Source: Nocardioides sp. BP30 (GTDB taxonomy: Bacteria > Actinomycetota > Actinomycetes > Propionibacteriales > Nocardioidaceae). Taken from it: a stretch of DNA of 64,000 bases. This document shows positions 30,909 to 51,773 of this stretch, one piece after another. The stretch covers positions 248,001-312,000 of the forward strand of contig NZ_CP123620.1 in NCBI RefSeq assembly GCF_029873215.1, read 5' to 3'. The position numbers and the translations under genes were made by a program. The first letter of the stretch is position 1. Each line of letters opens with the position of its first letter. Under the pieces are notes generated by a model. That model was given only the letters and a program-made list of their open reading frames with translations, was not told where the DNA came from and searched no databases.

Positions 30909-30960
30909 CGATTCTTCCGTTTCCTTGAGTGCGGTGAGGTTCGTACGGCTCGCGGCCGCG

Positions 30961-32724: not shown

Positions 32725-32785
32725 GACGGAAGCGGTTCCCTCCGGGCTGGGGTCGGTCAGAGGCTGAGAAGGGTGGGGTCACAGG

Positions 32786-32802
32786 GTCGGTCGAGGACCG
32801 AC
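32786..32802 (-). terminator. small hairpin between binding-protein and permease genes
   Basis: GTCGGTC and GACCGAC pair around GAG, 15 bp after the binding-protein stop (minus strand). Such hairpins often protect or attenuate the message so that binding protein is made in excess over permease. Arms are only 7 bp. Confidence 0.35.
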
Positions 32803-32816
32803 GCCGCGACGTCGCG

Positions 32817-33908
32817 TCACTGCGGCGCGTGCAGTGCCTGCTCGAACTCGGAGAGCTCGGCGTTGTACTCGTCGGGCGAGAGCATCGGGTCACCCCAGGC
32901 GGGCTTCCACTTGTTCTCGTCCCACACGGACGGGTCGTTCTTCACATCGGGTCGCAGCGAGGTGTGGTTGGTCTGGTCCACGACCTCCGTCTGGCCGGCC
33001 TGGGAGACCATCCAGTCCTCGAAGACGCGAGCGGCGGCCGGGTGGGGGGCGTGCGCGACGACGTCGATGAGGTTCAGCGAGGACGGCAGCGGGTCCGGAT
33101 TCGCGAAGGCGACCTGGTTCGGGGTGTCCTTCGCCATGTCCGACGCCTTGTAGCCGTAGATGGTCGCGCCGCCGGCGGGCTCGCCCGAGGCCACCTTGGT
33201 CAGAGCATCGGTGTGGCTCTCCACGAAGACAGGATCGTTGTCCCCGAGCTTCTTGACCAGGGCCAACGCCTGGTCGTGGCCCATCATCTTGACCAGCGAG
33301 TCGTACCAGTTGACCGCCGACGGGTCGATGGAGAACTTGCCCTTCCAGGCCGGATCGGTGAAGGTCTCGACGCTGGTCGGGACCGGCAGCCCCTGCTGCT
33401 TGACCACGGTGGGGTTCCACCCGACCGAGGCGGTCAGCACGTAGACGACGCCCTCATATCCCTTGGGCAACGTGAGGCCGGCGGGCAACGCGCTCTGGTC
33501 CGGCGGGGTGTAGGGCTGCAGCACCTGGGCCTGGATCATCTGCGCGATCTGGGGTGAGTCGCCGCTGACGACGTCGGCGGTGTACTGGTGACCCTTCTGC
33601 TCGGTGATCACCTTCGGCGGGATCTGGTCGGCGCTGAGCCGCAGCGCCGACACCTTGATCTTCGGGTAGACCTTGTTGAAGGCCTTGATCATCGGATCCA
33701 CGTCATCGGAGCTGAAGGTCGTGTACCAGGTGACCTTGCCCTCGGTGTTTGCTGCGGCTTGAAGGTCCGCAAGGGACATACTGCTGTAGCTGGCACCGTC
33801 GGCGGCAGTGCTGCTGTCGCCCGACGAACCGCAGCCAGCGACACTCAGAGCAAGACCGAGAGCGGCCAGCGGAACCATCGCCCGCCGGACAGTTCTCTTC
33901 GTCCTCAT
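32817..33908 (-). CDS. ABC transporter extracellular solute-binding lipoprotein 1
   Basis: 363 residues. A lipoprotein signal ends in the lipobox LSVAGC (Cys 26), so it is tethered outside the membrane. The mature part is an AfuA-like (COG1840 type) binding protein: GKVTWYTTFSSDDVDPMIKAFN and WKGKFSIDPSAVNWYDSLVK. It is very similar along its whole length to the paralogue at 34121-35206. Its promoter contains the island operator (33999-34011), so the cargo is probably the compound the island degrades, not iron, despite the family name. Confidence 0.93.
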   Translation of the reverse strand: MRTKRTVRRAMVPLAALGLALSVAGCGSSGDSSTAADGASYSSMSLADLQAAANTEGKVTWYTTFSSDDVDPMIKAFNKVYPKIKVSALRLSADQIPPKVITEQKGHQYTADVVSGDSPQIAQMIQAQVLQPYTPPDQSALPAGLTLPKGYEGVVYVLTASVGWNPTVVKQQGLPVPTSVETFTDPAWKGKFSIDPSAVNWYDSLVKMMGHDQALALVKKLGDNDPVFVESHTDALTKVASGEPAGGATIYGYKASDMAKDTPNQVAFANPDPLPSSLNLIDVVAHAPHPAAARVFEDWMVSQAGQTEVVDQTNHTSLRPDVKNDPSVWDENKWKPAWGDPMLSPDEYNAELSEFEQALHAPQ

Positions 33909-33998
33909 TCCACGTTCCCTTCATCGACCGAGTGGATTCGGCTATCGAAGCCGGTGACAGCGCTGTGGCGCACATCACGACGGACCCAGTATGGCAAT

Positions 33999-34018
33999 AT
34001 GGTTAGACCATTTGTCAA
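33999..34018. promoter_or_regulatory. GntR-type operator 1 inside promoter of binding protein 1
   Basis: ATGGTTAGACCAT at 33999-34011. On the minus strand it falls between a TTGACA -35 box (34018-34013) and a CATACT -10-like box 19 bp downstream, so a bound repressor would block polymerase. The same arrangement is repeated before binding protein 2. Confidence 0.75.
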
Positions 34019-34120
34019 TGCGTTCTACCTGAAAGTTTCATCTGGCTCCGGAAGGCTCGTTCGCGCGGCGGTGGAACGGCGGCCGGTGCCGGCCGGCCCC
34101 GAGGCCGGTCCGGCGTTCGC

Positions 34121-35206
34121 TCACTGAGGAGCGTGCAGTGCGGCGGCGAACTCGGCCAGCTCGGAGTTGTAGTCGGAGGACGCGAGCATCGGGTCTCCCC
34201 AGCCGGCCTTCCACTTGCTCTCGTCGAAGACGGACGGGTCGTTCTTCACATCGGGTCGCAGCGTGGTGTGGTTGGTCTGGTCCACGACCTCGGTCTGGCC
34301 GGCCTGGGAGACCATCCAATCGGTGAAGACACGGGCGGCGGCCGGGTGGGGGGCGTGCGCCACGACGTCGATGAGGTTGAGCGACGTCGGCAGCGGGTTC
34401 GGGTTGACGAAGGCGACCTGGTTGGGGGTGTCCTTGGCCATGTCCGCAGCCTTGTAGCCGTAGACGGTCGCCGCCCCGGCCGGCTCGCCGGCCGCGACCT
34501 TGGTCAGCGCGTCGGTGTGGCTCTCCACGAAGACCGGGTCGTTGTTCCCGAGCTTCTTGACCAGGGCCAGCGCCTGGTCGTGGCCCATCATCTTGACCAG
34601 CGAGTCGTACCAGTTGACCGCCGACGGGTCGATGGAGAACTTGCCCTTCCAGGCCGGGTCGGTGAAGGTCTCCACCCCCGTCGGGACCGGCAGGCCCTGC
34701 TTCTTGACCACCGTCGGGTTCCACGCGACGGCCGTCGTGTTGGCGTACACCACCCCCTCGTAGCCCTCGGGCAGCTTGAGCCCGGCGGGCAGCGCTGTCT
34801 GGTCGGGCGGGGTGTAGGGCTGCAGCGTCTTGGCCTGGATGAGCTGTGCCACCTGCGGCGAGTCGCCACTGATCACGTCGGCGGTGTACTGGTGGCCCTT
34901 CTGCTCGGTGATCACCTTGGGCGGGATCTGGTCGGCGCTGAGCCGCAGCGCCGTCACCTTGATGTTCGGGTAGTCCTTGTTGAAGGCCTTGATCATCGGA
35001 TCCACGTCATCGGAGCTGAAGGTCGTGTACCAGGTGACCTTGCCCTCGGAGTTCGCCGCCGACTTGAGGTCGGACAACGACATCTTGTTGTAGTCGGTGC
35101 CGTCGCCGGCCTTGTCGCTGGATGAGCCGCACGCGGCGACGCTCAGGGCCAGACCGAGAGCAGCCAGCGGAACGACTGCCCGCCTGACGGTTCGCCTAGA
35201 CCTCAT
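34121..35206 (-). CDS. ABC transporter extracellular solute-binding lipoprotein 2
   Basis: 361 residues from ATG 35206. Lipobox LSVAAC (Cys 26). Long stretches are identical to binding protein 1 (for example NWYDSLVKMMGHDQALALVK and VVDQTNHT), showing a recent tandem duplication. It has its own operator-bearing promoter. It has no permease of its own, so it probably shares the single permease/ATPase pair and may widen the substrate range. Confidence 0.93.
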   Translation of the reverse strand: MRSRRTVRRAVVPLAALGLALSVAACGSSSDKAGDGTDYNKMSLSDLKSAANSEGKVTWYTTFSSDDVDPMIKAFNKDYPNIKVTALRLSADQIPPKVITEQKGHQYTADVISGDSPQVAQLIQAKTLQPYTPPDQTALPAGLKLPEGYEGVVYANTTAVAWNPTVVKKQGLPVPTGVETFTDPAWKGKFSIDPSAVNWYDSLVKMMGHDQALALVKKLGNNDPVFVESHTDALTKVAAGEPAGAATVYGYKAADMAKDTPNQVAFVNPNPLPTSLNLIDVVAHAPHPAAARVFTDWMVSQAGQTEVVDQTNHTTLRPDVKNDPSVFDESKWKAGWGDPMLASSDYNSELAEFAAALHAPQ

Positions 35207-35308
35207 TGCACACACGTTCCCTTCGTCAACCATCGGCTACGACCGTCGAAGCCGCGGAGCCACACCTGCCTGTGGTGTGCATCACTTTCGGGACCCGAGT
35301 ATGGCAAG

Positions 35309-35586: not shown

Positions 35587-37224
35587 TCAGGCCGGCGTCG
35601 GCCCCATCGCCGAGAAGACCAGGGACTTGATCGTCACCGGGACGGTGCCCGACGGCTGCCGCACCCGGCCGAGGTCGACGTAGTCGAAGTCTCGCAACAG
35701 GACGCCGTCGAGGACGACCAGGTCGTTGCTGACGCCGAGCTCGTCGCGCAGCAGCATCCCCAGCGTGCGAGCGATGTCGGCGTCGAGCATCAGATACAGC
35801 GGCTGTCCTGCCGAGATCCGGGAGGCCAGGCCCTTGACCACTGCCTCGCCGAGAGCACGGATGCGGCGGTACTCCGGTGGCCCCTCCCACCTCAGGGCCA
35901 CCGCCAGCTCGCCCGTCTCTCCCGGGCCGAAGCGCTCGACGTGTCGTTCGATCGCCTCGCCGACCGCGGCAGCGTCGACCGACGCGCCCAGCTCGTAGTG
36001 CGGCTGCGCCACGGCGAGGTTGCGGCGTGGCAGGGTCCGCTCCGGCGCGCTGATGAAGCTGGTGATGCCACTGAGCTGCACCGTATACTCCGAGGCACCC
36101 AGCACCGTGGCTCGAATCCGGGCGTCTGCCGCGACGACGGGTCCGGGCAGCCCTCCTGCGGCCCCGGCCGCCGCGAGGGCCTCACCGAGCCGCTGGCCGA
36201 GGTCTCCGAAGGTGCGTTGCTCGGTCCCGTACACGTACTCGGCGACGCCGCCGGAGAAGATCACGGCGTCCACGGGCGCCAGGTCCGGAAGCGGATCGGT
36301 GAGCCAGAGATCCGGCTCCGAGGGCGGCTCGCCGCGCAGCACCGCGAGCAGCTCCTCGGCCATCCGATCGGCGATCGCGACCAGGTCGTGCTCACCCACC
36401 CGGGTGCCCAGCTCGACCGGGATGCCCGCACGACGCGCATGACGGGCACCGCCCGGCTCGAGCCGGATAACGGTGCCGTCCCGATCGGCGGCGACCAGCC
36501 GGCCGCCGACGTGGAATGCGGCCGTCGCGCTGATCCGACCGCCCTCGACCAGGGTGAGCTTGGTGGTGCCGCCGCCGATGTCGACATTCAGCACCCGGCT
36601 GTGCTCGCGGTGGGAGGCCAGCACCGCACCCGAGCCGTACGCCGCGAGCATGGCCTCCATGTGGTGTCCCGCCGTGGCGCAGACCAGGTCACCAGCCCGC
36701 TGGCTGACCACCGACGCGATCAGCTCGGCGTTGCGGCGCCTCAGCGCCTCGCCGGTGAGGATGACCACGCCGGTGTCGATCTGCTCGGGCGTCACCCTCG
36801 CCTCGGCGTAGGCGGTGTCGAGCATGCGGCCGAGCTCCACCGGGTCGATGAACAGGTCGCCGTCGTCGCCGAACGGGGTGAGCTGCACCTCCGATGCGTA
36901 GTGCGTCTCGCGGCGCACGACGACGTACCGGCTGGTGAGGTCCTCGCTCAGCCGACGCAGGTGCAACCGCGAGAACGCGACCTGGGTGCCGGCGGAACCG
37001 ATGTCGACACCGACGCTGTGCAGGACGACGTTGTCCTGCAGCCAGATCGGGTTCTCCTCGATCGGGATCTCGACGCCGTCGTCGTGCTCGTCGTCGATCC
37101 CGTGCCCGTGATGGTGATCGTGATCGTCCCCGTGATCGTGCCCGTCGGCGGCTGCCCGGCCGTGGCCATGCCGTCGGGCATCGTCGTGACCCTGACCGAG
37201 GGAGTGGAGGTGCTCCTGACTCAT
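35587..37224 (-). CDS. EutA-family reactivating ATPase with His-rich N-terminus
   Basis: 545 residues from ATG 37224, overlapping the stop of the bicupin gene (ATGA). The body matches EutA, the actin-like ATPase that reactivates ethanolamine ammonia-lyase: VGVDIGSAGTQVAFSRL (phosphate-1, about residue 71), VLNVDIGGGTTKLTLVEGG, HVGGRLVAADRDG, SGGVAEYVY, and the closing SGTVPVTIKSLVF. Residues 5-47 hold 13 histidines (for example HDHGDDHDHHHGHG), a metal-binding-like tail that E. coli EutA lacks. There is no eutB or eutC here. It may instead release damaged cofactor or metal from an enzyme of this island; that is inference. Confidence 0.85.
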   Translation of the reverse strand: MSQEHLHSLGQGHDDARRHGHGRAAADGHDHGDDHDHHHGHGIDDEHDDGVEIPIEENPIWLQDNVVLHSVGVDIGSAGTQVAFSRLHLRRLSEDLTSRYVVVRRETHYASEVQLTPFGDDGDLFIDPVELGRMLDTAYAEARVTPEQIDTGVVILTGEALRRRNAELIASVVSQRAGDLVCATAGHHMEAMLAAYGSGAVLASHREHSRVLNVDIGGGTTKLTLVEGGRISATAAFHVGGRLVAADRDGTVIRLEPGGARHARRAGIPVELGTRVGEHDLVAIADRMAEELLAVLRGEPPSEPDLWLTDPLPDLAPVDAVIFSGGVAEYVYGTEQRTFGDLGQRLGEALAAAGAAGGLPGPVVAADARIRATVLGASEYTVQLSGITSFISAPERTLPRRNLAVAQPHYELGASVDAAAVGEAIERHVERFGPGETGELAVALRWEGPPEYRRIRALGEAVVKGLASRISAGQPLYLMLDADIARTLGMLLRDELGVSNDLVVLDGVLLRDFDYVDLGRVRQPSGTVPVTIKSLVFSAMGPTPA

Positions 37225-38342
37225 GCGGTCGGCAGCGGCGGGAGGTCCTCGAGCTCGGCGGCGTAGGCGGCGTCCATCCGCGGCGTCAGACCCTTCTCCG
37301 CGAGCGCCTTCGCGAACGTGTCGCGCACGATCGGGGACTCGTCGGCATAGTCGATCTGGTCGCCGCCCACGCGCTGGCTGATCCACGCCTTCGGGACGCC
37401 CTGTGCGTTGCGGATGGAGACCACCTCGTGCTTGAAGGCGAGGTAGCGGCCGGGGGTCTCACCGGTGTTGAAGTGCTGGTGGTACCACATGTTCGGCGGC
37501 ACGATCAGGGTGCCGGGCTTCCAGTCGTAGCGCCGGGGCTCCTCGCCCTCGGGCCACATGAGGCTGAAGCCCTCGCCGCTCATGATGATGACGTGGGCGC
37601 CCGGGCCGTGCCGGTGGCCCTTCTTGTACGTCGCCACCGGGAACTGCGAGATGTGGCTGTTCATCGAGCCCTTCGCCATCATGAAACGGATGTGGCCGCC
37701 ACCCGCGCCGCGCTCCTTGGCCTCGTTGAGCTTCAGGTTGACCGCGTCGTAGACGAAGTTCGTCTTGAGGAGCAGGCCCTCGCGGTCGTCCTTGTCGGTG
37801 AAGTAGTCGGGTTCGCCGTCGAACCGGCCGAGGAAGTCGTGCGGGGTGCCGAACACGAACTCGGGCTCGTCGAACTGGTTGATCACCGGCGGCATGTTGG
37901 TGGAGGAGACGAACCGCGCCGCCTGGGTGCCCGAGCCGTTGAAGTGCTGGTGGTGCGCGTTGAGCGGGATGGCGAACAGCGAGCCCGGGCCCCACTCGAA
38001 GGTGACCTTGTCGCCCTTGTCGTTCCACACGGAGGTCGAGCCGTGGCCCGACAGGACCAGGATCATCTCCTCGAAGAGCTGTCGGCGCGGAGCGAGCGCA
38101 CCGCCGGCCGGGATCTCACAGACGTAGCAGTCGTTGGACGTGCGCGAGGCCTCGTGGTTGATGAAGACACCACGACCGCCGCGGCTCTCCCACGGCTTCA
38201 GCTCGACGGTGTTGAGGTCGGGGACGTAGTGCGCCGCGATGATGTCGAGCCCCTCGGCCGTCACCCACCGCACGTACGGGGAGTCCTTCTCCTGAGCGAA
38301 CTTCTTCGCCATGTCCTCGGAAACGAGTGCGTCCTTGACCAC
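37221..38342 (-). CDS. bicupin protein 1 (putative ring-cleaving or metal-binding oxygenase)
   Basis: 373 residues from GTG 38342, preferred because GGAGG lies 5 bases upstream; ATG 38354 is the alternative. Two cupin domains: residues about 70-140 have a degenerate first motif (APRRQLFEEM, no HxH) with HHQHF later; residues about 235-305 have GHRHGPGAHVIIMSGEGFSL and YHQHFN, suitable metal ligands. Gentisate-type bicupin dioxygenases have this kind of layout. It heads the operon with the EutA-like gene and has an island operator in its promoter. Reaction not proven. Confidence 0.8.
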   Translation of the reverse strand: MVKDALVSEDMAKKFAQEKDSPYVRWVTAEGLDIIAAHYVPDLNTVELKPWESRGGRGVFINHEASRTSNDCYVCEIPAGGALAPRRQLFEEMILVLSGHGSTSVWNDKGDKVTFEWGPGSLFAIPLNAHHQHFNGSGTQAARFVSSTNMPPVINQFDEPEFVFGTPHDFLGRFDGEPDYFTDKDDREGLLLKTNFVYDAVNLKLNEAKERGAGGGHIRFMMAKGSMNSHISQFPVATYKKGHRHGPGAHVIIMSGEGFSLMWPEGEEPRRYDWKPGTLIVPPNMWYHQHFNTGETPGRYLAFKHEVVSIRNAQGVPKAWISQRVGGDQIDYADESPIVRDTFAKALAEKGLTPRMDAAYAAELEDLPPLPTA

Positions 38343-38371
38343 GTGATCCTCCATCTCTTGCGTTTGGTGAA

Positions 38372-38399
38372 ATGGTATTACCAATGCCGGGTATGTCAA
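38372..38399. promoter_or_regulatory. GntR-type operator 3 in bicupin 1 promoter
   Basis: ATGGTATTACCAA at 38372-38384. On the minus strand TTGACA (38399-38394) is the likely -35, and the dyad overlaps the -10 region about 18 bp further on. Confidence 0.7.
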
Positions 38400-38402
38400 G
38401 CG

Positions 38403-39656
38403 TCACGTCGCCGCACGAGGCTCGCCAGCCGACGCGGCGGAGGCGGCCGCGCCCGCGTAGCGGCGGACCGGATTGTCGCTGCCGAGGAACGCACCCACGT
38501 AGGCGATCGTCAGCACGCCGCCCAGGACCAGCGACGTCGCGGGGCCGAGCGTCGCTGCGGCCGAGCCCATCAGCGTGTCGCCCAGCGCCGGTCCCCCCTT
38601 GGACGCCATCTGGTAGATCGCCGAGACCCGGCCGCGCATCTCGTGCGGCGTCTCGAGCTGGACCGCGGCCTGCCGGATCGTCGTCGCCATCGCATCGCAG
38701 GCGCCGAGCAGCAGCAGGGCGAGGATCGCGACCGGGACGACACCCGCGCGCGCCAGCAGGATCGCACTCAGCCCGTAGGCCACCGTCGAGGTGAGCAGAA
38801 CCGTCCCCAGACGACGGCTCCGGCCCACCACGCGGAACACCGTGTAGGTGGCCACGAGGGCACCCAGGGACGGCGCCGAGGACAGCAGGCCGTATCCCGC
38901 CGGGCCGATGTGGAGGCGGTGCACGGCCAGCGCCGGCAGCACCACCCGGTAGGAGGAGAAGAGGGTCGCGGAGAGGTCGAGCGACATCATCATCCACACG
39001 ATCCGGCGACGCCGGACGAAGGCGAAGCCCTCGCCGATCTGATGCCAGACGGACTGGCTCCTCGGCGCGCCCGGCAGCTGCGCGACGCGGACCAGGCCGA
39101 GCGCCAGGATGAGCAGGCCGTACGTCGCGGCGTCGAGCAGGTAGACCAGGCCGGGTCCGTGCAGCGCGATCAGCACGCCGGCGAGCGCCGGACCCAGCAG
39201 GACGGCGAGCTCGCGGGAGGGGTTGAGCAGTGCGAACGCCTGCGGCAGCTGCGCGGCCGGCACCAGTGCGGGGATGAGCGCGTTGCGGGCGGGCTGGTCG
39301 AACGTCGCGGCGGCCGAGGTGAGCACGACGGAGACCAGCACTTCCCAGGTGGTGATCGAGCCGACCAGGCTCAGAGCGGTGATGGCCACCGCGACCACGA
39401 GGGCGACCCCCTGGCTGCACTGCAGGAGCCGGCGTCGATCCAGCCGGTCGGCGTACACACCGCCGAGCGGGCTGAGCACCAGCAGCGCCACCGCCTGCGC
39501 AGCACCGACCAGCCCGGTCTGAGCGAGCGAGCCCGACAGCTCATAGACCTGGTAGAGGTTCGCGGCGAGCGTGCCCCGCGTACCGATCTGTGAGAGCACC
39601 ACGCCCGACCAGTACAGATCGAAGTCTCGGTTCCTCACGATGAGGGGGATCGCCAC
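38403..39656 (-). CDS. MFS transporter (DHA3 type)
   Basis: 417 residues from GTG 39656 (GGAGG 5 bases upstream; the longer frame to 39698 starts within the operator). Twelve hydrophobic segments; the start IPLIVRNRDFDLYWSGVVLSQIG and GGVYADRLDRRRLL match the EntS/DHA3 branch of exporters. It is divergent from the GntR regulator and shares the operator at 39686. It may export toxic intermediates or import the substrate. Confidence 0.9.
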   Translation of the reverse strand: MAIPLIVRNRDFDLYWSGVVLSQIGTRGTLAANLYQVYELSGSLAQTGLVGAAQAVALLVLSPLGGVYADRLDRRRLLQCSQGVALVVAVAITALSLVGSITTWEVLVSVVLTSAAATFDQPARNALIPALVPAAQLPQAFALLNPSRELAVLLGPALAGVLIALHGPGLVYLLDAATYGLLILALGLVRVAQLPGAPRSQSVWHQIGEGFAFVRRRRIVWMMMSLDLSATLFSSYRVVLPALAVHRLHIGPAGYGLLSSAPSLGALVATYTVFRVVGRSRRLGTVLLTSTVAYGLSAILLARAGVVPVAILALLLLGACDAMATTIRQAAVQLETPHEMRGRVSAIYQMASKGGPALGDTLMGSAAATLGPATSLVLGGVLTIAYVGAFLGSDNPVRRYAGAAASAASAGEPRAAT

Positions 39657-39685
39657 GGGCACCTCCAAAGTCGTCCCTGTGGCGT

Positions 39686-39698
39686 ATGGTCTTACCAT
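39686..39698. promoter_or_regulatory. GntR-type operator 4 between MFS and GntR genes
   Basis: ATGGTCTTACCAT, a perfect 5-bp-arm dyad. It is 30 bp upstream of the MFS start and 90 bp upstream of the GntR start, so it can serve both; autoregulation of the GntR gene is likely. Confidence 0.75.
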
Positions 39699-39788
39699 TA
39701 ATCACTTGGTGCTGCATGCTCTCCGTCACCTGGTAGGCATAGGGTGGCGCACACTGGCTGTCGGCGGGACGGCTTGAAGGAGGGGACG

Positions 39789-40517
39789 ATGGCGGCCAAC
39801 ACCGCGGACCGGCAAGACATGTTCAGTCCGGTCACCGTGGACCGGGTATCGCAGGTGATCGTCGACCAGATCAAGGTGCTCATCCGAGACGGACGACTCC
39901 AGCCCGGCGACCGACTGCCGAGCGAGCGCGAGCTCTGCCAGCGCTTCGGCGTGAGCCGGGTGACGGTGCGCGAGGCGCTCCGTGTGCTCGAGGCCAGTGG
40001 CCTGCTCGCGATCCGCGTCGGTGCCCACGGCGGCGCGTTCCTCACCACACCCTCGGCCGAGCGGCTCGGCGAGGGTCTGGCCGACCTGATCTCGCTCGCG
40101 CCCCTGACCGCCACAAACGTCACCGAGGCCCGCATCGTCGTCGAGCTCGGCGTCCTGCCCCTGGCGGTGGAGCGTGCCACCGAGGAGGACATCGACGCCC
40201 TCTTCGCCATGGTCGAGGACGGCGAGCGAGCCGTCGAGTCCGGCACCTACAACGTCGAGATGTCGGCCGCCTTTCACATCCGGGTCGCCGAATGCACCCA
40301 CAATCCGGCGATCGAGATGCTGATGCAGAGCTTCCACGGGCCGATGCGGATGTCGATCGAGGAATCCCACGCCGCGGCTCCGATGGGTCCGCGAGGCGTC
40401 GAGGAGCACCGCGAGCTGGCTGAGGCCATCAAGCAGCGCGACGTCGCCGCCGCCCGCGAGGTCATGACCACACACCTGGACCGCACCGCCCAGCGCGTGC
40501 GCACCCAGACCGACTGA
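39789..40517 (+). CDS. GntR family regulator (FCD domain), predicted master repressor of the island
   Basis: 242 residues from ATG 39789 (GGAGG upstream). The winged helix is residues about 14-85: VIVDQIKVLIRDGRLQPGDR, LPSERELCQRFGVSRVTVREALRVLEASGL. The C-terminal FCD domain includes AFHIRVAECTHNPAIEMLM and EEHRELAEAIKQRD, with the histidines that bind a metal in this family. FCD-GntR proteins often sense organic acids, and many bind TGGTNNNACCA-like sites, which is what lies before almost every unit from 29784 to 57658. It is divergent from the MFS gene. Confidence 0.93.
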   Translation: MAANTADRQDMFSPVTVDRVSQVIVDQIKVLIRDGRLQPGDRLPSERELCQRFGVSRVTVREALRVLEASGLLAIRVGAHGGAFLTTPSAERLGEGLADLISLAPLTATNVTEARIVVELGVLPLAVERATEEDIDALFAMVEDGERAVESGTYNVEMSAAFHIRVAECTHNPAIEMLMQSFHGPMRMSIEESHAAAPMGPRGVEEHRELAEAIKQRDVAAAREVMTTHLDRTAQRVRTQTD

Positions 40518-40606
40518 GGGCACCGCGGGATTCCTCTCCGGCGCCGGCCGCGGCCTCGACCTACGGTTCAGGATGCGGCGGCGACACGCTGGCATCGCGC
40601 CAGGCA

Positions 40607-40619
40607 TTGGACATACCAT
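40607..40619. promoter_or_regulatory. GntR-type operator 5 before the MoxR-VWA operon
   Basis: TTGGACATACCAT: the right half matches the consensus and the left keeps TGG in register. It is 47 bp upstream of the MoxR start. Confidence 0.6.
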
Positions 40620-40665
40620 TGCTCCAAAGGAACGGCTCGCTCGTTCCCGTGCGAGAGGACGAACC

Positions 40666-41496
40666 GTGACCCAGACCGTCACCCCATCGACTGTGGACGC
40701 GCCGTTCTACCTGCCCGTCCGTGACGAGGTCGAGCTCTTCGAGGCAGCGTACGAACAACGGATCCCGGTGCTGCTCAAAGGCCCGACCGGGTGCGGCAAG
40801 ACGCGCTTCGTCGAGCACATGGTGTGGCGGCTCCTCGGCCGGCGCAGCGGCGCTCCGGAGCAGCCGCTGATCACCGTCAGCTGCCACGACGACCTCACCT
40901 CCGCGGACCTGGTCGGCCGCTACCTGCTCTCCAGCGAGGGCACCACCTGGCTGGACGGCCCGCTGACCCAGGCCGTGCGCACCGGCGCGATCTGCTACCT
41001 CGACGAGGTGGTCGAGGCGCGCAAGGACACCACGGTGATCCTGCACGCGCTCACCGACCATCGTCGGATCCTGCCCGTGGAGCGTCTCGGCACCACGATC
41101 GAGGCGCACCCCGACTTCCTCCTGGTCGTCTCGTACAACCCCGGCTACCAGGCAACCGCGAAGGACCTCAAGCCGAGCACGCGCCAGCGTTTCATGGCCA
41201 TCGAGTTCACCTATCCCGAGCGCGACCTCGAGACCCGCATCATCACGCACGAGGCCCACGTCGACGAGACGACCGCCCGCGACCTCGCCTTCCTCGGCGA
41301 GCAACTGCGCCGGCTCGACGAGGCGGGCGTCATCGAGGGCCCGAGCACCCGGTTGCTCGTGCACGTCGGAGGCCTGATCACCCGCGGCATCGCTCCGCGG
41401 CGAGCGTGCGACGTGGGCCTGGTCCAGGCACTGAGCGACGATCCCGACGTCCAGGAGGCCGTGACCCAGGTCGTCGAGGCCGTCTTCCCGGCCTGA
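40666..41496 (+). CDS. MoxR-type AAA+ ATPase (NorQ/CbbQ/GvpN branch)
   Basis: 276 residues from GTG 40666 (AGAGG upstream). Walker A is LLKGPTGCGKTRFVEHM (about residues 37-53), Walker B is ICYLDEVVEARKD (about 109), and the NorQ/CbbQ hallmark LLVVSYNPGYQATAKDLKPSTRQRF is present. These ring ATPases act with a VWA protein to install or restore metal centres or to activate enzymes. Its VWA partner follows after two bases. It probably serves a metalloenzyme of this island, the bicupins or the Rieske oxygenase. Confidence 0.92.
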   Translation: MTQTVTPSTVDAPFYLPVRDEVELFEAAYEQRIPVLLKGPTGCGKTRFVEHMVWRLLGRRSGAPEQPLITVSCHDDLTSADLVGRYLLSSEGTTWLDGPLTQAVRTGAICYLDEVVEARKDTTVILHALTDHRRILPVERLGTTIEAHPDFLLVVSYNPGYQATAKDLKPSTRQRFMAIEFTYPERDLETRIITHEAHVDETTARDLAFLGEQLRRLDEAGVIEGPSTRLLVHVGGLITRGIAPRRACDVGLVQALSDDPDVQEAVTQVVEAVFPA

Positions 41497-41498
41497 GC

Positions 41499-43583
41499 AT
41501 GACCACTCTTCGCGAGACCGCCGAACTGGAGGTCGCCGCCGCCGAGGACCGCACCAGGCACTCGCTGGCGCTCTACTACCGCGCGCTGTGCGGCGAGGTC
41601 TGCTCGCTGATCCCCTACGACGACGGCTCGAGCCCCTGGGAGCACGCCGACACCGAGACCACGGTCTGGCTCCCCCGCGAGGCCCCTCTGGACGACCACG
41701 CCGAGTTCGACGCACAGGAGTGGTATCAGGTCGCGATGACCCATCGGGCGATGCACCGCGCGCTCGGCACGTTCGACATCGACCTGGCCCGCGACGAGCC
41801 CCTCTTCGCGCGGATGCGTCCGACCGATCCCGGGGACCCGGACGTACCGTCGCTGCGCCGGCTTGCGGGGCTCTTCGGCCACTCCGTGCTCGGCGTGCAC
41901 GTCTTCGCCACCTGCGAGGACCTGCGCATCGACGCCGCCACCGACCGGCTGCTGCCCGGCCTCGTGAAGCCGGCCAGGGCGGTGCACCACGGAGCGCTGC
42001 ACGAGCGACCGCAGCCGGCGACGCTCTTCCCCCGCGCGGCCGCTGTCGAGGCACTGGTGCGCTACAGCCTGGGCGGCTCGATCGTGTGGGCCGCGTCGGT
42101 GATGCACGAGCCGATCGCCCGGATCGTCTCGGTCGTTCAGCACCTGCGCGATCCGCGCGCCACGGTGGAGTCCAGCCTCGAGGCGGCCCTGCGGGTCTGC
42201 GACATCCTGATCGGGCTCCCGACCGAGGGCGCGCACCGCAGCACCCACCAGCTCCGGTTCGCCGACCTCGACACCACGCTGGACGACAGTCGCTTCGACA
42301 TCGCCACCCTGCCGGACCGGATGGCCGGCGCGGAGGGATTCGCTGGCTGGTACCACCCGGTCGCCTACCGCGACTGGCCTGGTCCGCGGTACGTGGGAGC
42401 ACCAGCCGCCGACGTCTCCTTGGAGGCTTTCCTGCCCCAGGTCGCCCAGGCCGGGACCGCGCCGGTGCATGTCGGCAAGGACGACGAGGACGCCGACGCA
42501 CAGGGGCCCGGCCGCGCGGTCGCCGAGGCCGTCAGCGGCGGTGCCGACCCCGCTGCCGCACCCAACCTCCGTCCGCTCGTCCCCGTGGTGGGCCACGAAC
42601 CCTGGGCCGACCTGGACACCCCGATGACCTCGCGCGCACCGAACGAGTTCGTCTACCCGGAGTGGGACACCTATACGGGTGGCTACCGGGCCGACTTCAC
42701 CCGCGTGCGGGTCCTCGGTGCACCGATCAAACGCGCCGACCACAGCCACTACCGGGCGCTTGCCCGCTACGGGCACCTGGTGGGCCGGCTGGTCCGGGAG
42801 CTCGAGCGGGTCCGCCCCGACGGCCGGACGGTCTCGCGGCGGTCCGCTCACGGTGACGACCTGGACCTCGATGCCTGTATCGAGGCCACCATCGACCTGC
42901 GCACGGGGGTGGAGCCCTGCGACCGGGTCTTCACCGATCTGCGCCGGCGACGCCGCGACGTCGCCGTGGTGTTCCTGCTGGACCTGAGCGGGTCGACGGC
43001 CGTGGTGCTGCCGCCGGATCCAGAGACGCCGGGGACGGTGCGCAGCATCCTCGACCTGCAGCGTGACGCCGTCAGCCTGCTCGCGCGGGCGCTGGACCGG
43101 GTCGGTGACGACTACGGGATCTACGGGTTCAGCGGCAGCGGCCGCGACGACGTGCGCCTCTCGGTGGTCAAGGACGTCGAGGAGCGTGCCACGCCCGCCG
43201 TGTGGCACCGTCTGGGCGGGCTCGTCCCCGACCACACCACCCGGATGGCGCCGGCGATCCGGCACCTCACCCGGCGACTGCGTGACGTCGAGGCGGCCAC
43301 GAAGATCATGTTCGTGATCTCGGACGGCCGTCCCTACGACATCGACTACGGGCAGCAGTACGGCGAGATGGCCATGCTGGGGTACACCATCGACGACACC
43401 GCCCGGGCGCTGGGCGAGGCCCGTGAGGCGGGGGTGCACCCCTACCTGGTGACCGTCGATCCCGACGGTGCCGACTACCTCGGCACCGCCTGCGAGCCCG
43501 GCTCCTATCGGGTCATCGCCGAGACCGCCGACCTTCCCGAGGCGCTCGCCGCGCTGTACACCTCGGTTCGCGGCACCGTCTGA
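41499..43583 (+). CDS. VWA-domain protein (NorD/CbbO type), MoxR partner
   Basis: 694 residues from ATG 41499, two bases after the MoxR stop. The C-terminal 200 residues are a von Willebrand A domain with an intact MIDAS motif (FLLDLSGSTAVV, near residue 495) and a matching IMFVISDGRPYDIDYG. The long N-terminal part is typical of NorD/CbbO, which bind both the ATPase and the client enzyme. In known cases the client is nitric oxide reductase or Rubisco; neither is encoded here. Followed by a hairpin terminator. Confidence 0.9.
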   Translation: MTTLRETAELEVAAAEDRTRHSLALYYRALCGEVCSLIPYDDGSSPWEHADTETTVWLPREAPLDDHAEFDAQEWYQVAMTHRAMHRALGTFDIDLARDEPLFARMRPTDPGDPDVPSLRRLAGLFGHSVLGVHVFATCEDLRIDAATDRLLPGLVKPARAVHHGALHERPQPATLFPRAAAVEALVRYSLGGSIVWAASVMHEPIARIVSVVQHLRDPRATVESSLEAALRVCDILIGLPTEGAHRSTHQLRFADLDTTLDDSRFDIATLPDRMAGAEGFAGWYHPVAYRDWPGPRYVGAPAADVSLEAFLPQVAQAGTAPVHVGKDDEDADAQGPGRAVAEAVSGGADPAAAPNLRPLVPVVGHEPWADLDTPMTSRAPNEFVYPEWDTYTGGYRADFTRVRVLGAPIKRADHSHYRALARYGHLVGRLVRELERVRPDGRTVSRRSAHGDDLDLDACIEATIDLRTGVEPCDRVFTDLRRRRRDVAVVFLLDLSGSTAVVLPPDPETPGTVRSILDLQRDAVSLLARALDRVGDDYGIYGFSGSGRDDVRLSVVKDVEERATPAVWHRLGGLVPDHTTRMAPAIRHLTRRLRDVEAATKIMFVISDGRPYDIDYGQQYGEMAMLGYTIDDTARALGEAREAGVHPYLVTVDPDGADYLGTACEPGSYRVIAETADLPEALAALYTSVRGTV

Positions 43584-43593
43584 GCGAGACAGA

Positions 43594-43623
43594 CGGCCCG
43601 CGCCCCGAGGGGAGCGCGGGCCG
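43594..43623. terminator. bidirectional hairpin between VWA and bicupin 2 genes
   Basis: CGGCCCGCGC (43594-43603) pairs with GCGCGGGCCG (43614-43623), extended by CCC/GGG with one bulged A. It sits between two convergent genes and probably ends both. Confidence 0.75.
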
Positions 43624-43642
43624 CGTTCGCCGGGCGTGGGCC

Positions 43643-44659
43643 TCAGGCGCTCCGGTGCTCGGTGTACTCCGGGGCATCCTCGAAGAAGTAGACGTTGTCG
43701 TAGCCGAGGTACTGGAAGATGCGGTTCTCGGCGCCGAGCAGATGGATCGGCGTGCCGTCGGCGGCGAAGTGCTGGACGATGGTGTTCTGCGGGACGTAGA
43801 TCGTGTCGCCCTCCTTCCACTCGTGCCGGGTCGGTTCGTTGGCGATGCGGGCGTAGTACTTCTCCGCGATCTCCGCCTCGACCTCCCACATCAGGGAGTA
43901 GCCCTCGCCGGCGAGGGCGTAGAAGACCTGGTCGGCCATCTTCCAGTACTTCCCGGTGCGGCCGCCGGCAGGGGTGGTGACCTCGTAGAAGTCCATGGAG
44001 AACTGCCGGTTGTTGGGCGTCACGTCCTTGTGGTTCATCCAGCGCATGTGGCCGAGCGGGGTGTACTCCCACCGTCCGTCGGTCGGCTTGACGACCTTGC
44101 TCATCTCGGTCGCGCCAGGGGTCCAGATGCGCGACCACTCCTCCCGGCCGCCGAAGGCCTCAGGACGGTCGATCGGGCCGCTGCGGCCCTGCTGGATCAG
44201 GCCCATGAACATCCACAGGCTCTTGGACTTGAAGACCAGCGCCCGAGCGGTCTCGTCGTACGGGTTGAAGTGCTGGTGGTGGGAGTCGGTGTGGACGAAG
44301 CACAGATCGCCCTTCTCCCAGTCGTAGCGCTTGTCGTCGTGGATCTCGTAGCCACGGCCCTCGAGGATGTAGAAAGCGGCCTCGTTCTGGTGGCCGTGCC
44401 CGTTGTTGGCGCTCTGCCCGGGGAACTCGTTGAAGTGGACCTGGATGGTCTGGGTGAGGAACGGCTCGTCACCCGGACCCACCCGCCACCACGTGCGGGT
44501 CTTCGCCGAGTCGCCCGAGTGGGCGACGCTGTCGCCGGTGTCGACGACGATCGTGTTGTCGCGCACCCGGGGCGCGTCGAGCTGAGCCCGGCGGAACTGG
44601 TTGAGGGTGTAGGTCTCGGAGTTCATCCCCCGGACAAAGGTGCGAGTCTTCTTCGCCAT
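43643..44659 (-). CDS. bicupin protein 2
   Basis: 338 residues. The first cupin domain has a canonical metal site GHGHQNEAAFYILEGRGYEI (His 88, His 90, Glu 93) and a later HHQHFN. The second (about residues 245-320, YALAGEGYSLMWE ... VPQNTIVQHFAADG) lacks the HxH pair. This is the mirror image of bicupin 1, in which the second domain is the intact one. Conserved lengths and the aromatic-acid context suggest an iron or manganese oxygenase or an isomerase, not proven. Monocistronic, with a weak operator copy upstream. Confidence 0.8.
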   Translation of the reverse strand: MAKKTRTFVRGMNSETYTLNQFRRAQLDAPRVRDNTIVVDTGDSVAHSGDSAKTRTWWRVGPGDEPFLTQTIQVHFNEFPGQSANNGHGHQNEAAFYILEGRGYEIHDDKRYDWEKGDLCFVHTDSHHQHFNPYDETARALVFKSKSLWMFMGLIQQGRSGPIDRPEAFGGREEWSRIWTPGATEMSKVVKPTDGRWEYTPLGHMRWMNHKDVTPNNRQFSMDFYEVTTPAGGRTGKYWKMADQVFYALAGEGYSLMWEVEAEIAEKYYARIANEPTRHEWKEGDTIYVPQNTIVQHFAADGTPIHLLGAENRIFQYLGYDNVYFFEDAPEYTEHRSA

Positions 44660-44755: not shown

Positions 44756-44793
44756 TTGAACGGGGCGGTGCCCACCCGTTATGGTCATACCAA
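44756..44793 (+). promoter_or_regulatory. GntR-type operator 7 and promoter of the ferredoxin reductase
   Basis: TTGAAC (44756-44761) as -35 and TATGGT (44780-44785) as -10 with an 18-bp spacer. The operator ATGGTCATACCAA (44781-44793) overlaps the -10, consistent with repression. Confidence 0.7.
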
Positions 44794-44812: not shown

Positions 44813-46075
44813 ATGACCGCTGACCGCACCGGCACCCTCATCGTCGGCGCCAGCCAGGCCGGTGTCGAGCTGGCCGCGACCCTGCGCAGACTCGGCGACG
44901 ACCAGCCGATCCTCCTCGTCGGCAGCGAGGACCGCCCGCCGTACCAGCGGCCGCCGCTGTCGAAGGCCTATCTGGCCGGCAAGGCCACCGCCGAATCGCT
45001 CGAGTTCCGCACCGCGCAGTGGTACGCCGAGCAGCGCATCGACCTCCGGCTCTCCACCAAGATCGAGCGCATCGAGCTCGACGCCCCGACCGGTGGCGCC
45101 GGCGTGGCGACCACCCGCGGCGGCGAGCGCCTCGGCTTCGCCCGGCTGGCACTCACCGTCGGTGGCAGGGCCCGCCGGCTGGCGATCCCCGGCGCCGACC
45201 GGGACGGGGTGTGCTACCTGCGTCACGTGCGCAACGCCGACCACCTGCGCGCGCGGCTGGAGGCGGCCTCCGATGTCGTCGTGATCGGCGGTGGCTTCAT
45301 CGGCCTGGAGGCGGCCGCGGCAGCCCGCGCGGCCGGCAAGGAGGTCACCGTCGTCGACACGGCCGAGCGCCTGCTCGGCCGCGCTGTCGCCCCGGTCGTC
45401 TCGGAGTTCTACCTCCACGCCCACCGGCGCCGCGGCACTCATGTCCTGCTCGGCACCGGCATCGAGACGATCGAAGGCGCTGGCGAGACGGGGACGGTCA
45501 CGGGGGTACGGCTCGCCGACGGCCAGGTGCTGCCCGCGCAGCTCGTGCTGATCGGCGTCGGCCTCGAGCCGCGCACCGAGCTGGCCGAGCAGCTCGGTCT
45601 GGAGGTCGACCGTGGCATCGTGGTCGACGCGTACGCCCGGACGAGCAACCGGGCGATCGTGGCCGCCGGGGACTGCACCACGCTGCCGCACCCCCTCACC
45701 GGCGCAGGCCGGATCCGGATCGAGTCGGTGCAGAACGCGATCGCCCAGGCGCAGGCCGCGGCCGCGGCGCTGGTGGGGCGTCCCTCGGCCACCGCGGCGG
45801 TCCCCTGGTTCTGGTCGGACCAGGACACCCTCAAGCTCCAGATCGCCGGCCTGTCCACCGGCTACGACGAGGTCGTCGTGCGCGGTGAGCCGAGCAGCGA
45901 GCAGTTCTCGGTGCTCTACTACACCGGCGGTCGTCTGATCGCCGTGGACGCGGTCAACGCCCCTCGGGACTACATGGTGGTGCGCAAGCTGCTCGGCGAG
46001 GGCGGCTCCATCCCGGCCGATCTGGCGGCCGACGCCACCCGGCCACTGAAGGAGCTGCTCGCCGCGTCGATCTGA
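44813..46075 (+). CDS. FAD-dependent ferredoxin reductase (putidaredoxin reductase type)
   Basis: 420 residues from ATG 44813 (GGAGGAG upstream). Two dinucleotide-binding motifs are present, GTLIVGASQAGVELAATLR for FAD and VVVIGGGFIGLEAAAAAR for NAD(P)H, plus YQRPPLSKAYLAGK and the ATG-like AAGDCTTLPHPLTG. This type of reductase passes electrons from NADH to an adrenodoxin-type [2Fe-2S] ferredoxin. The matching ferredoxin is 11 kb away (57302-57628), beside the Rieske oxygenase, and both carry the same operator. Confidence 0.93.
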   Translation: MTADRTGTLIVGASQAGVELAATLRRLGDDQPILLVGSEDRPPYQRPPLSKAYLAGKATAESLEFRTAQWYAEQRIDLRLSTKIERIELDAPTGGAGVATTRGGERLGFARLALTVGGRARRLAIPGADRDGVCYLRHVRNADHLRARLEAASDVVVIGGGFIGLEAAAAARAAGKEVTVVDTAERLLGRAVAPVVSEFYLHAHRRRGTHVLLGTGIETIEGAGETGTVTGVRLADGQVLPAQLVLIGVGLEPRTELAEQLGLEVDRGIVVDAYARTSNRAIVAAGDCTTLPHPLTGAGRIRIESVQNAIAQAQAAAAALVGRPSATAAVPWFWSDQDTLKLQIAGLSTGYDEVVVRGEPSSEQFSVLYYTGGRLIAVDAVNAPRDYMVVRKLLGEGGSIPADLAADATRPLKELLAASI

Positions 46076-46130: not shown

Positions 46131-47015
46131 CTACAGGCCCCCGTCAGCGGCGCTCATCGCAGACACCACCCTGCCGAGGTAGCGGCACTCCTCGCCGTAG
46201 AGCAGGTCGGCCACGTCCCCGGCCGTGAGCGACTTCACCAGCTGGTCCACCTGGCCGGTCAGCGGCAGCATCAAGCCGCCCTCCTGGGCCAGCTCGGTGA
46301 CCAGGTCCATGTCCTTCTCCTGCCAGGTGAAGCGGGTCCCGTCCCAGCGCCGCAGCGTGCCGTTCTCCGCCGGGGACTGCAGCAGGACCTCGCGCATCCG
46401 CTGCGCGTCGACGCCGTAGCGCTTGGCCAGCGCCAGCGTCTCGAAGTTGGCGACGCTGTGCACCCAGTGCAGGAGGTTGTTGCAGGCCTTGGCGATCTGG
46501 CCGGCGCCGAGCGCGCCGACGTGCTCGACACCGCGGCTGTAGCCCATCAACGCCGGGCGCGCCCGCTCGACGTCCTCCGTGGCGCCGCCGCACAGCGACA
46601 GCAGGGTGCCCTCGCGCGCGCCCGTCGTGCCGTAGACGACCGGGGCATCGATCACCCGACCACCCACGGCCTCCAGCGACTCGGCCAGTCGACGCATCAG
46701 CGCCAGGCTGTGCGTGCCGGCGACGACCAGCAGCTGCCCGGGCCGGCCGTGTTCGGCGACCTCCGCTGCGACCGCCGCCATCTGATCGTCGGTGCGCAGG
46801 CACGCGATCACGATCCCGGTCCTCGCGGCCACCTCGGCGACCGAGGAGGCCGCTGTGACACCCCCCTCGACCGCGGCGGCCAGGCGCGCGGGGTCGACGT
46901 CGTACGCCACGACGTCCAGGCCGCGCCGGACCATGTGTCCCGACATCGGCAGCCCCATGTCGCCCACGCCGATCAGTCCGACCTTCTCTGCCGAGGTGTT
47001 CCCGGTCCCGGTCAT
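46131..47015 (-). CDS. NAD(P)-dependent hydroxyacid dehydrogenase (HIBADH family)
   Basis: 294 residues from ATG 47015, overlapping the stop of the aldolase gene (ATGA). N-terminal cofactor motif KVGLIGVGDMGLPMSGHMVRRG; substrate motif APVVYGTTGAREGTLLSLCGG; catalytic Lys in GAGQIAKACNNLLHWVHSV. The family includes 3-hydroxyisobutyrate, tartronate-semialdehyde and threonate dehydrogenases. Last gene of a six-gene operon starting with the alcohol dehydrogenase; it probably oxidises or reduces a short hydroxy-acid from the pathway. Confidence 0.9.
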   Translation of the reverse strand: MTGTGNTSAEKVGLIGVGDMGLPMSGHMVRRGLDVVAYDVDPARLAAAVEGGVTAASSVAEVAARTGIVIACLRTDDQMAAVAAEVAEHGRPGQLLVVAGTHSLALMRRLAESLEAVGGRVIDAPVVYGTTGAREGTLLSLCGGATEDVERARPALMGYSRGVEHVGALGAGQIAKACNNLLHWVHSVANFETLALAKRYGVDAQRMREVLLQSPAENGTLRRWDGTRFTWQEKDMDLVTELAQEGGLMLPLTGQVDQLVKSLTAGDVADLLYGEECRYLGRVVSAMSAADGGL

Positions 47016-47773
47016 CGTGGCTCCTTCCCTGCGTCGATCCGGTCGACGTCGTCCAGGCCCCGGAGGGCCAGTCTCCTGACGTGATAGCGCCAGACGACCG
47101 CCTCGTTGAACGCCGAGCCGAGGTCGGGCAGGTCGGCACGATCCGCCTCGCTCACCTCGTCGGGCCGACCGTCGAGGCCGGCGACAGCGACGGTCAATCG
47201 GGCCAGCTCGTCGAGGTCGAGCGTGCGCAGCACCGACTCGCGGGGGTTGTCGCCGACGGTCACCACGCCGTGACCCAGGAGCAGCGCGGCACTCCCGTCG
47301 CCCAGCGTGGCGGCCAGCGAGCGGCCCGCCTCGGCGGTCCGCACCAGGCCCCGGTGGGGCCAGAGCGGGACGCCGTCGGCCGCCATCCGATACGCCGGGA
47401 TGTTGAACGCGCCGACGACCGGCCGCAGCGGACGATCGGCCAGACCGGCCACCACGGCCGCCACCGGGTGGGCATGCACGACCGAGGCGACGTCGGGCCG
47501 TGCCCGCAGGATCTCGGCGTGGATGGGGTACTCGTTGGGCAGCCGGTACCCGTCGCCCACCTCCCCGCTGTCGTCGAGCTCGACCAGGCGGATGTCGTCG
47601 ACCGTGGTGAACAGCAGGCCGCTCTCCTGGGGACCGCGGCACCGCACCAGCACCCGACCGTCGGGCAGCCGGTGGCTGACGTGGCCGAGGATCGGCGTGG
47701 TCGCGCCGGTGGCAGCGAGGATGCGGCAGCCCAACGCGATCGTACGGCGCAGCTCCAGCAGCGTTGTGTCCAT
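47012..47773 (-). CDS. class II aldolase/adducin family protein
   Basis: 253 residues. Family motifs: metal-binding NEYPIHAEILRARPDVASVVHAH and LLLGHGVVTVGDNPRESV. The family contains L-fuculose-phosphate aldolase, and also the 3,4-dihydroxyphthalate decarboxylases of actinobacterial phthalate pathways, which would fit the neighbouring dihydroxyphthalate-decarboxylase-like genes. A sugar-acid aldolase/decarboxylase partner of the HIBADH gene (as in threonate pathways) is the alternative. Confidence 0.88.
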   Translation of the reverse strand: MDTTLLELRRTIALGCRILAATGATTPILGHVSHRLPDGRVLVRCRGPQESGLLFTTVDDIRLVELDDSGEVGDGYRLPNEYPIHAEILRARPDVASVVHAHPVAAVVAGLADRPLRPVVGAFNIPAYRMAADGVPLWPHRGLVRTAEAGRSLAATLGDGSAALLLGHGVVTVGDNPRESVLRTLDLDELARLTVAVAGLDGRPDEVSEADRADLPDLGSAFNEAVVWRYHVRRLALRGLDDVDRIDAGKEPR

Positions 47774-49812: not shown

Positions 49813-50513
49813 GCCTGCTGCTCCCTGTGCCACTGGCTGTACTCGACGTACCGGACGCCGGCCCGCTCCAGCAGCGGGCGCATGTCGTTGACGTCGAGCG
49901 CGATCTCCCCGGCGGCATAGCGAGCGCGCGACAAGGCCTCCTTCTCCTCGCGCGCGGTCGCCGCGGCCAGCACCTCGGCCAGGCGAAGCCGCGGCACCAC
50001 GACCACACCGTCGTCGTCGGCGACGATCGCGTCGCCGGGCGCGACGACACGACCCGCGATCGCGATCGGCACGTTGACGTCGCCGACCGTGCCCTTGCCG
50101 GTGCCCTCCGCCGAGACGCACCGCGACCAGACCGGGAAGCCCATCTCGCGGAGGTCGGCGACATCGCGCACGCCCGCGTCGATGACCAGGCCGCGAACGC
50201 CGCGTGCCTGCAGCGACGTGGCGAGCAGATCGCCGAAGTAACCCATGTCGCAGGGCGCGGTCGGGGTCACCACGAGCACGTCACCGTCCGAGCACTGCTC
50301 GACGGCGACGCCGATCGTGGTGTTGTCACCCGGGGCCACGGTGACGGTGACGGCACTGCCGGCGATCCGCGTGCCCGTCTGGATCGGGTTGAGGTGGGAG
50401 CCGAGCAGACCGGTACGGCCCTGGGCCTCGTGGATCGTCGCCACGCCGTACGCCGCGAGGGCATCGACCAGCTCGCGCTCCGCCCGCGGCGGGTTCGTCA
50501 CCACGATGCTCAA
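49809..50513 (-). CDS. 4-carboxy-4-hydroxy-2-oxoadipate aldolase-like (RraA/LigK family)
   Basis: 234 residues. RraA fold motifs: ATIHEAQGRTGLL, CDMGYFGDLLATSLQARG, GLVIDAGVRDVADLREMGFPVW (metal-binding Arg-Asp) and DDDGVVVVPR. LigK cleaves CHA to pyruvate and oxaloacetate, which enter central metabolism. The start appears to be TTG 50513, whose last two bases form the stop codon of the alcohol dehydrogenase (TTGA), suggesting translation by coupling. Confidence 0.87.
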   Translation of the reverse strand: MSIVVTNPPRAERELVDALAAYGVATIHEAQGRTGLLGSHLNPIQTGTRIAGSAVTVTVAPGDNTTIGVAVEQCSDGDVLVVTPTAPCDMGYFGDLLATSLQARGVRGLVIDAGVRDVADLREMGFPVWSRCVSAEGTGKGTVGDVNVPIAIAGRVVAPGDAIVADDDGVVVVPRLRLAEVLAAATAREEKEALSRARYAAGEIALDVNDMRPLLERAGVRYVEYSQWHREQQA

Positions 50514-51658: not shown

Positions 51659-51700
51659 GAGCTGACTCCCTTGGCTCGGCCGTTGTCGATTCTTGGCAGA

Positions 51701-51721: not shown

Positions 51722-51773
51722 CACTGTGACCCAGGCCACCGGACGCGTCGGTGGCAGCCGACCGAGGAGCGCC

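Follow-up and report, generated by a model that had tools for sequence, protein, structure and literature searches.

Bicupins paired with unrelated ATPases in a phthalate-type gene cluster of Nocardioides sp. BP30 suggest a little-known class of enzyme-maintenance machines

The 64,000-nucleotide stretch of Nocardioides sp. BP30 analysed here (the window: bases 248001-312000 of a single-contig genome of 4.28 Mb) carries two bicupin genes in close company with two ATP-driven systems: an ASKHA ATPase of the EutA family, adjoining bicupin 1, and a MoxR-VWA pair resembling NorQ/NorD, adjoining bicupin 2 (Table 1). A GntR/FCD regulator and an MFS transporter lie between the two groups. The bicupins and both ATPase systems had been named in an earlier, sequence-only reading of the window; all of these genes were recovered, several of them with corrected starts. 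Together with its relatives in other genomes, the locus points to a kind of machine for enzyme maintenance that is little known so far; we regard it as fairly probable that dedicated ATPases keep ring-cleavage-type bicupins active within a substrate-responsive, phthalate-type aromatic-acid cluster.

Table 1. Genes and operator sites of the cluster, in window coordinates
Feature	Position	Strand	Family match or remark
ABC transporter	29784..35233	-	ATPase, permease, two near-duplicate binding proteins
Operator, exact	starts at 34000		precedes an ABC binding-protein gene
Operator, exact	starts at 35310		precedes an ABC binding-protein gene
EutA-like ASKHA ATPase	35587..37224	-	PF06277, 353 bits (cut-off 27); proposed partner of bicupin 1
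Bicupin 1	37221..38354	-	377 aa; corrected start about 38354
Operator, exact, GntR-type	38373..38383	-	upstream of bicupin 1
MFS transporter	38403..39698	-	PF07690; annotated start overlaps operator, true start may be further in
Operator, exact	39687..39697		between divergent MFS and GntR genes; overlaps annotated MFS start
GntR/FCD regulator	39789..40517	+	PF00392, PF07729
Operator, one mismatch	40608..40618	+	upstream of MoxR
MoxR AAA+, NorQ/CbbQ type	40666..41496	+	AAA_5 PF07728, CbbQ_C PF08406; corrected start about 40666
VWA protein	41499..43583	+	C-terminal half NorD-like; corrected start 41499
Bicupin 2	43643..44659	-	
Operator, exact	44782..44792		between bicupin 2 and ferredoxin reductase
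Rieske-type ferredoxin reductase	44813..46075	+	PF07992, PF14759
3-Hydroxyisobutyrate dehydrogenase-like (HIBADH-like)	46131..47015	-	
PhtC-type 3,4-dihydroxyphthalate decarboxylase	47012..47773	-	NF053537, 283 bits (cut-off 200)
Protein without any family match	47787..48788	-	
Amidohydrolase_2	48799..50121	-	PF04909
Zn-dependent alcohol dehydrogenase	50510..51814	-	
Histidine phosphatase family protein	53124..53885	-	PF00300
Alpha/beta hydrolase	53789..54637	-	
PanB-like protein	54668..55492	-	PF02548; under NCBIfam cut-offs
Rieske oxygenase alpha subunit	55975..57276	-	with LigXa_C
2Fe-2S ferredoxin	57302..57634	-	PF00111

One regulator site is common to the two bicupins and to the two ATPase systems, which are unrelated to each other. 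Exact copies of the operator TGGTNNNACCA are found at or upstream of gene starts at five positions spread over 10.9 kb, where the density of the site across the genome (45 copies) would predict 0.11; another exact copy, at 37477, was excluded as coding, being a Trp-Tyr-His-Gln stretch within bicupin 1. The earlier claim of one common operator holds to the letter for bicupin 1, bicupin 2 and the transporter, and with one mismatch for MoxR. Among related loci, counted without coding Trp-Tyr-His-Gln copies and without genes near locus ends, the operator stands upstream of bicupin 1 in 38/76 (2.0 expected), of bicupin 2 in 6/15 (0.39), of the GntR gene in 8/26 (0.68) and of the ferredoxin gene in 4/33 (0.87). 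It was found upstream of the Rieske alpha gene in 1/48 loci, against 1.26 expected, and upstream of the MFS gene in 0/28, the ferredoxin reductase in 0/9 and EutA in 0/73, where the blank for EutA fits its cotranscription with bicupin 1. The window genes at 46-57.6 kb have no exact site upstream, and a common regulator over them is therefore not shown.

The stop codon of bicupin 1 and the ATG of the EutA-like gene, whose start was corrected from 37386 to 37224, overlap as ATGA. Bicupin 1 is predicted to fold like salicylate/gentisate 1,2-dioxygenases (predicted structure, Foldseek matches), enzymes whose metal site lies in the N-terminal cupin. In bicupin 1 this site is lost and the C-terminal one is kept, where the conserved His cluster is confined (H246, H248, H253, H291 and H293 of the 376-aa query); in bicupin 2, it is the N-terminal cupin alone that retains its metal ligands (H88, H90, E93, H128 and H130). 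The EutA-like protein is the sole EutA of the genome and scores under every EutA equivalog cut-off of NCBIfam (280.6 bits against the best model, cut-off 598). A role as ethanolamine ammonia-lyase reactivase was rejected for this genome because EutB is absent from it, by the same search that finds EutB in E. coli. EutB is likewise absent in 37/40 genomes that carry bicupin 1, and present in three. The known clients of these ATPases had been described as absent: this is borne out for EutB by the search, and Rubisco and nitric oxide reductase are not among the identified cluster genes.

One scan of the bicupin-1 query against named genomes returned 317 relatives, and the analysis was based on the best 80 (73-87% identity), which belong to Actinomycetota and to Alpha-, Beta- and Gammaproteobacteria. 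This sampling favours near kin of the window's bicupin 1. EutA lies within 700 bp of bicupin 1 in 65/80 loci (on the same strand in 61) and further away in 8, and the seven loci without EutA are all shorter than 10 kb; the two are separated by genes of an ABC transporter in several of the loci from proteobacteria. Every locus of at least 20 kb has EutA (50/50), 41/50 have the Rieske alpha subunit and 0/50 a VWA gene. Rhizobial plasmids carry two additional bicupin/EutA types. In Sinorhizobium (L012), two EutAs that are 39% identical to each other are 76% and 77% identical to the Phyllobacterium EutA of the matching bicupin type; judged from these identities, EutA types co-segregate with bicupin types. 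In the pairs L083 and L092 the bicupin is flanked by two EutAs and had been matched with the closer one, which is of the other type; both pairs were left out of this comparison.

The presence of a Rieske alpha gene near bicupin 1 in 41 of the 50 long loci, as well as in the window, is what would be expected if the ATPases maintained another metalloenzyme of the cluster, chiefly the Rieske oxygenase, and the bicupins were mere neighbours. We judge this improbable: in the other nine long loci EutA and bicupin 1 stand with no Rieske alpha in reach, the overlap or close spacing described above ties EutA to the bicupin, the types of the two co-segregate, and bicupins elsewhere are adjoined by TRIP13-like and CDC48-like ATPases.

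The EutA-like protein was said to be His-rich, and this proved correct. Its N-terminus is rich in His and Asp at about residues 12-48, reaching 8 His per 20 residues; in the comparison of 22 window proteins, the runner-up has 4. EutAs of the window's kind (a-type) open with a stretch such as PDHDHVHDD, the strict motif being present in 56/62 and absent in 6/62; b-type EutAs have a DHEH version (3/3), and the non-b-type remainder outside the a-type lacks the motif (9/12). In all four control EutAs (three with annotated EutB and EutC alongside, one from an unannotated record) the ATPase domain begins at the very start, without a His/Asp-rich N-terminus.

As regards bicupin 2, its gene converges on that of the VWA protein, 59 bases away, and is divergent from the ferredoxin reductase. 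Among solved chains, MoxR is closest to those of CbbQ and NorQ, with scores of up to 332 bits. Residues 380-693 of the VWA protein match the NorD chain 9qhd at 139 bits (9qh6 is another matching NorD chain), there is no PDB sequence match before about residue 326, and the metal-adhesion residues DLSGS and SDG were identified by eye. The protein represents a distinct family, with 168 matches among 7995 scored candidates. When the longest contigs of the 120 best bicupin-2 clusters were compared in length with those of the 120 best VWA clusters, 12 lengths coincided; on contigs >5 kb, 12 of the 45 bicupin-2 clusters shared an exact length with the contig of a VWA relative, against a chance level of 0.10 on average and 2 at most (2000 jittered trials). 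By a count made by eye, all 12 fall within the 56 best-scoring bicupin-2 clusters (12/24 of those on contigs >5 kb, against 0/21 of the lower-scoring ones on such contigs). The same comparison gave a single equal length >5 kb for bicupin 1 with the VWA list (28699) and a single one for bicupin 1 with bicupin 2 (407300). We infer that equal sizes denote the same contig, carrying both bicupin 2 and VWA.

In whole-genome searches, VWA relatives at E<=1e-60 occur in 2/250 and 2/200 genomes of two families, and in 0/112 of a third, where the search held no positive and so shows little. In the order to which the window belongs, 2/293 genomes gave matches apart from the window's VWA itself, all of them partial. 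All four relatives are situated among cluster genes. One (G698) stands with GntR, Zn-dependent alcohol dehydrogenase, ferredoxin and a bicupin; another (G729) with a Rieske alpha subunit (87%), a ferredoxin (84%) and a EutA-bicupin pair (38% and 33%); the third (G1054), whose contig measures 9 kb, with an ABC transporter at 64-71%; the fourth (G900) has bicupin 2, bicupin 3 and GntR no more than 20 kb away, a bicupin-3-like match (44%) lying 68 bp from the VWA match. In G729 the gene directly upstream of MoxR is not a bicupin; the open reading frames there (L138, 13200-16970) look to us like an oxygenase of the TauD kind and a protein resembling aminopeptidase/NicX, and MoxR-VWA may serve another metal enzyme in that genome. 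The phylum sample also yielded five NorD/CbbO-like loci of more remote kinship, one of them just 5.2 kb long; none of the 15 other window proteins used in that search was matched there, save for one partial match to the ABC ATPase.

Several findings weigh against a fixed bond between this pair and the bicupins. No VWA gene occurs within 10 kb of bicupin 1 in any of the 80 loci, and none of 40 bicupin-1 genomes searched whole has a full-length relative (one has a partial match); bicupin 2 (>=40%) occurs without VWA in 19/80 bicupin-1 loci; and in Nonomuraea cypriaca (L023, 8734-8940) a 74-residue MoxR match, probably a remnant, stands beside GntR with the VWA gene absent, the only MoxR within 10 kb of bicupin 1 in the 80 loci. 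The five-family system put forward in the sequence-only reading as a single conserved unit was rejected on these counts. Co-occurrence fails for the five families together; EutA is tied to bicupin 1, and MoxR-VWA is linked to bicupin 2. An exception is the contig of G900, which carries MoxR-VWA and is equal in size (59971) to the contig of L070 with bicupin 1 and EutA, and because of this equality the genome probably carries both modules. With full-length VWA absent from the 40 bicupin-1 genomes searched, bicupin 2 occurring without it and a MoxR remnant alone, the comparisons indicate that MoxR-VWA is an optional accessory. The same absences, and a placement that in other genomes is not constant with respect to bicupin 2, could also mean that the pair is a passenger in the window, unrelated to bicupin 2. 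We consider this unlikely, if less so than the Rieske alternative, given the operator of the cluster's type, with one mismatch, before MoxR, the 12 contig sizes common to VWA and bicupin 2, the placement of VWA among cluster genes in 4/4 loci, and the bicupin match 68 bp from the end of the VWA match in G900.

Two further bicupin-ATPase modules lie outside the window, in relatives. Bicupin 3, which matches gentisate 1,2-dioxygenases and is 75-92% like the query in 20/21 other loci, is directly followed by an AAA+ protein whose closest solved relatives are Pch2/TRIP13 (for example at L034, 8828-10776). This order, scored on the AAA domain alone, is kept in 20/22 loci, that is, in 20/20 testable ones, the two misses having <=130 bp of DNA left; at L033, both proteins match weakly or in part. 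A diverged bicupin 2 adjoins a CDC48-type double AAA+ protein (507 bits) in 3/3 genomes, as at L137 (3980-7223), where the AAA+ has a His-rich linker, and two other genomes are likewise; four other loci have weaker single-cupin relatives and no CDC48-type gene. Taken together, these neighbourhoods establish the association of bicupins with ATPase genes as a recurrent one, whose better unit, on genomic grounds, is one bicupin with one ATPase. The earlier interpretation is partly supported in this form, and the maintenance idea gains strength because the bicupin pairing recurs with four ATPase families. The tight linkage and translational coupling of bicupin 1 and EutA would also suit a single enzyme, such as an ATP-dependent carboxylase, a hydrolase or a sensor, in which the ATPase served as a subunit and had no part in maintenance; there are precedents for ASKHA proteins as subunits of enzymes. 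Such an arrangement seems to us no likelier than a Rieske client: bicupins of one superfamily are found with ATPases of four unrelated types, and three of these types are similar to remodelling machines already known.

His-rich stretches recur in some of the other partners. The linker of the CDC48-like protein has sequences such as EDHHHHGPSDHDHDH, and stretches like PHDHGPDLDDHHEHAHGHLH are found in 70/74 more distant members of the VWA family and in 0/46 of the window's own clade. Ordinary NorD-like controls (8 open reading frames from 14 loci tried) carry no such stretch and never exceed 3 His per 20 residues, and among the bicupins 9/240 reach 5, with none higher.

Cupin dioxygenases are usually thought to acquire their metal unaided. 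In the mechanism we favour, the bicupins would be ring-cleaving clients in contact with their ATPases, and the act performed on them would be metal loading or a reset of the active site. The EutA-like ATPase, co-translated with bicupin 1, would spend ATP to open or remodel it, opening the barrel or freeing a dead-end ligand, and its His/Asp-rich N-terminus might hold metal for return, or capture wrong or oxidised metal. The NorQ/NorD-like pair would do equivalent work on bicupin 2 as an optional accessory. A bolder version, which we put forward tentatively and rate below the favoured reading, is that bicupin ring-cleavage dioxygenases need catalytic chaperones recruited at least four times (EutA-type ASKHA, MoxR-VWA, Pch2/TRIP13-like and CDC48-like), several with a His/Asp-rich arm for inserting or exchanging the metal of the active site.

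The pattern fits the logic of NorQ/NorD and of the Rubisco activases by analogy. Two papers assign to NorQ and NorD the insertion of non-haem iron, Fe(B), into the nitric oxide reductase cNOR, and describe a motor proposed to both twist and stretch a NorD linker (PMC13036017, PMC9976466). The pair described here has the same combination of a NorQ-type AAA+ and a VWA protein with a NorD-like C-terminal half; it differs in its link to bicupins, in the lack of a PDB sequence match for the VWA N-terminal half, and in that no NorB/NorC was seen in the cluster (the genome was not searched for nitric oxide reductase). Measured against solved chains, MoxR is no closer to NorQ than to CbbQ; unlike CbbQ/CbbO, a Rubisco activase, it has no Rubisco in view within the cluster (the genome was not searched for Rubisco). 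For Rubisco, PMC5437159 describes three evolutionarily distinct classes of AAA+ activase; several distinct ATPases for one enzyme family is the shared feature, and the differences are the proposed client, bicupin oxygenases, and an ASKHA protein, not an AAA+, among the ATPases. With EutA, the ethanolamine ammonia-lyase reactivating factor, the window's protein shares PF06277 across the ATPase part; it differs in the missing EutB, the bicupin as partner gene and the His/Asp-rich N-terminus. The bicupins share their fold (predicted for bicupin 1) with salicylate/gentisate 1,2-dioxygenases, from which they differ in identity (11-14%) and in having one intact metal site per protein; their scores against the aminosalicylate dioxygenase model, 28.4 and 23.4 bits, are far from its cut-off of 650. 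We know of no ATPase for salicylate/gentisate 1,2-dioxygenases. In the open-access papers searched, none was found joining cupin, EutA and MoxR, or containing ‘ethanolamine ammonia lyase-activating protein’, and the passages of PMC11278965 consulted make no connection of gentisate with MoxR.

If the proposal is true, the chaperones of bicupins would be the cupin counterpart of Rubisco activases, and bicupins, after Rubisco, the second enzyme family in nature attended by several distinct machines for ATP-driven repair; for the EutA and Pch2 families, no earlier role in metal loading is known to us. A need of whole branches of the cupin dioxygenases for dedicated ATPases could account for the inactivity of some of these enzymes when they are produced by themselves. 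A large family would gain a testable role: 6055 relatives of bicupin 1 were scored, and some carry the label ‘ethanolamine ammonia lyase-activating protein’. When the phylum was sampled evenly, bicupin 1 turned up at E<=1e-30 in only 5/296 genomes, its own included. Four plasmid records carry bicupin 1 and none matches bicupin 2; 255 matched the VWA query, none with 80% of it covered, and 1841 the CDC48-like query, none with 80% covered at one place.

By its gene content, the cluster as a whole is of the phthalate-type aromatic catabolic kind: it combines a dihydroxyphthalate decarboxylase (PhtC) and a Rieske oxygenase with LigXa_C, which matches a solved putative phthalate 4,5-dioxygenase (7fhr) at 312 bits, with a ferredoxin and an ABC transporter. 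The best NCBIfam models for the ferredoxin reductase are dioxygenase reductases, all under cut-off. The product of 47787..48788 presumably resembles a 4,5-dihydroxyphthalate decarboxylase or a binding protein. No RNA families were found in the window. On a Phyllobacterium plasmid, NikR and a HoxN/NixA-type Ni/Co transporter directly adjoin a EutA-bicupin pair (L011, 14911-16513), where the metal, by this context, may be nickel or cobalt; the same plasmid has a gene for a YjbE-type metal transporter (L009, 17805-18446) close to another of its EutA-bicupin pairs. In the window itself, the ABC binding-protein genes form a tandem pair of very similar copies (32817-35233), each with its own operator upstream.

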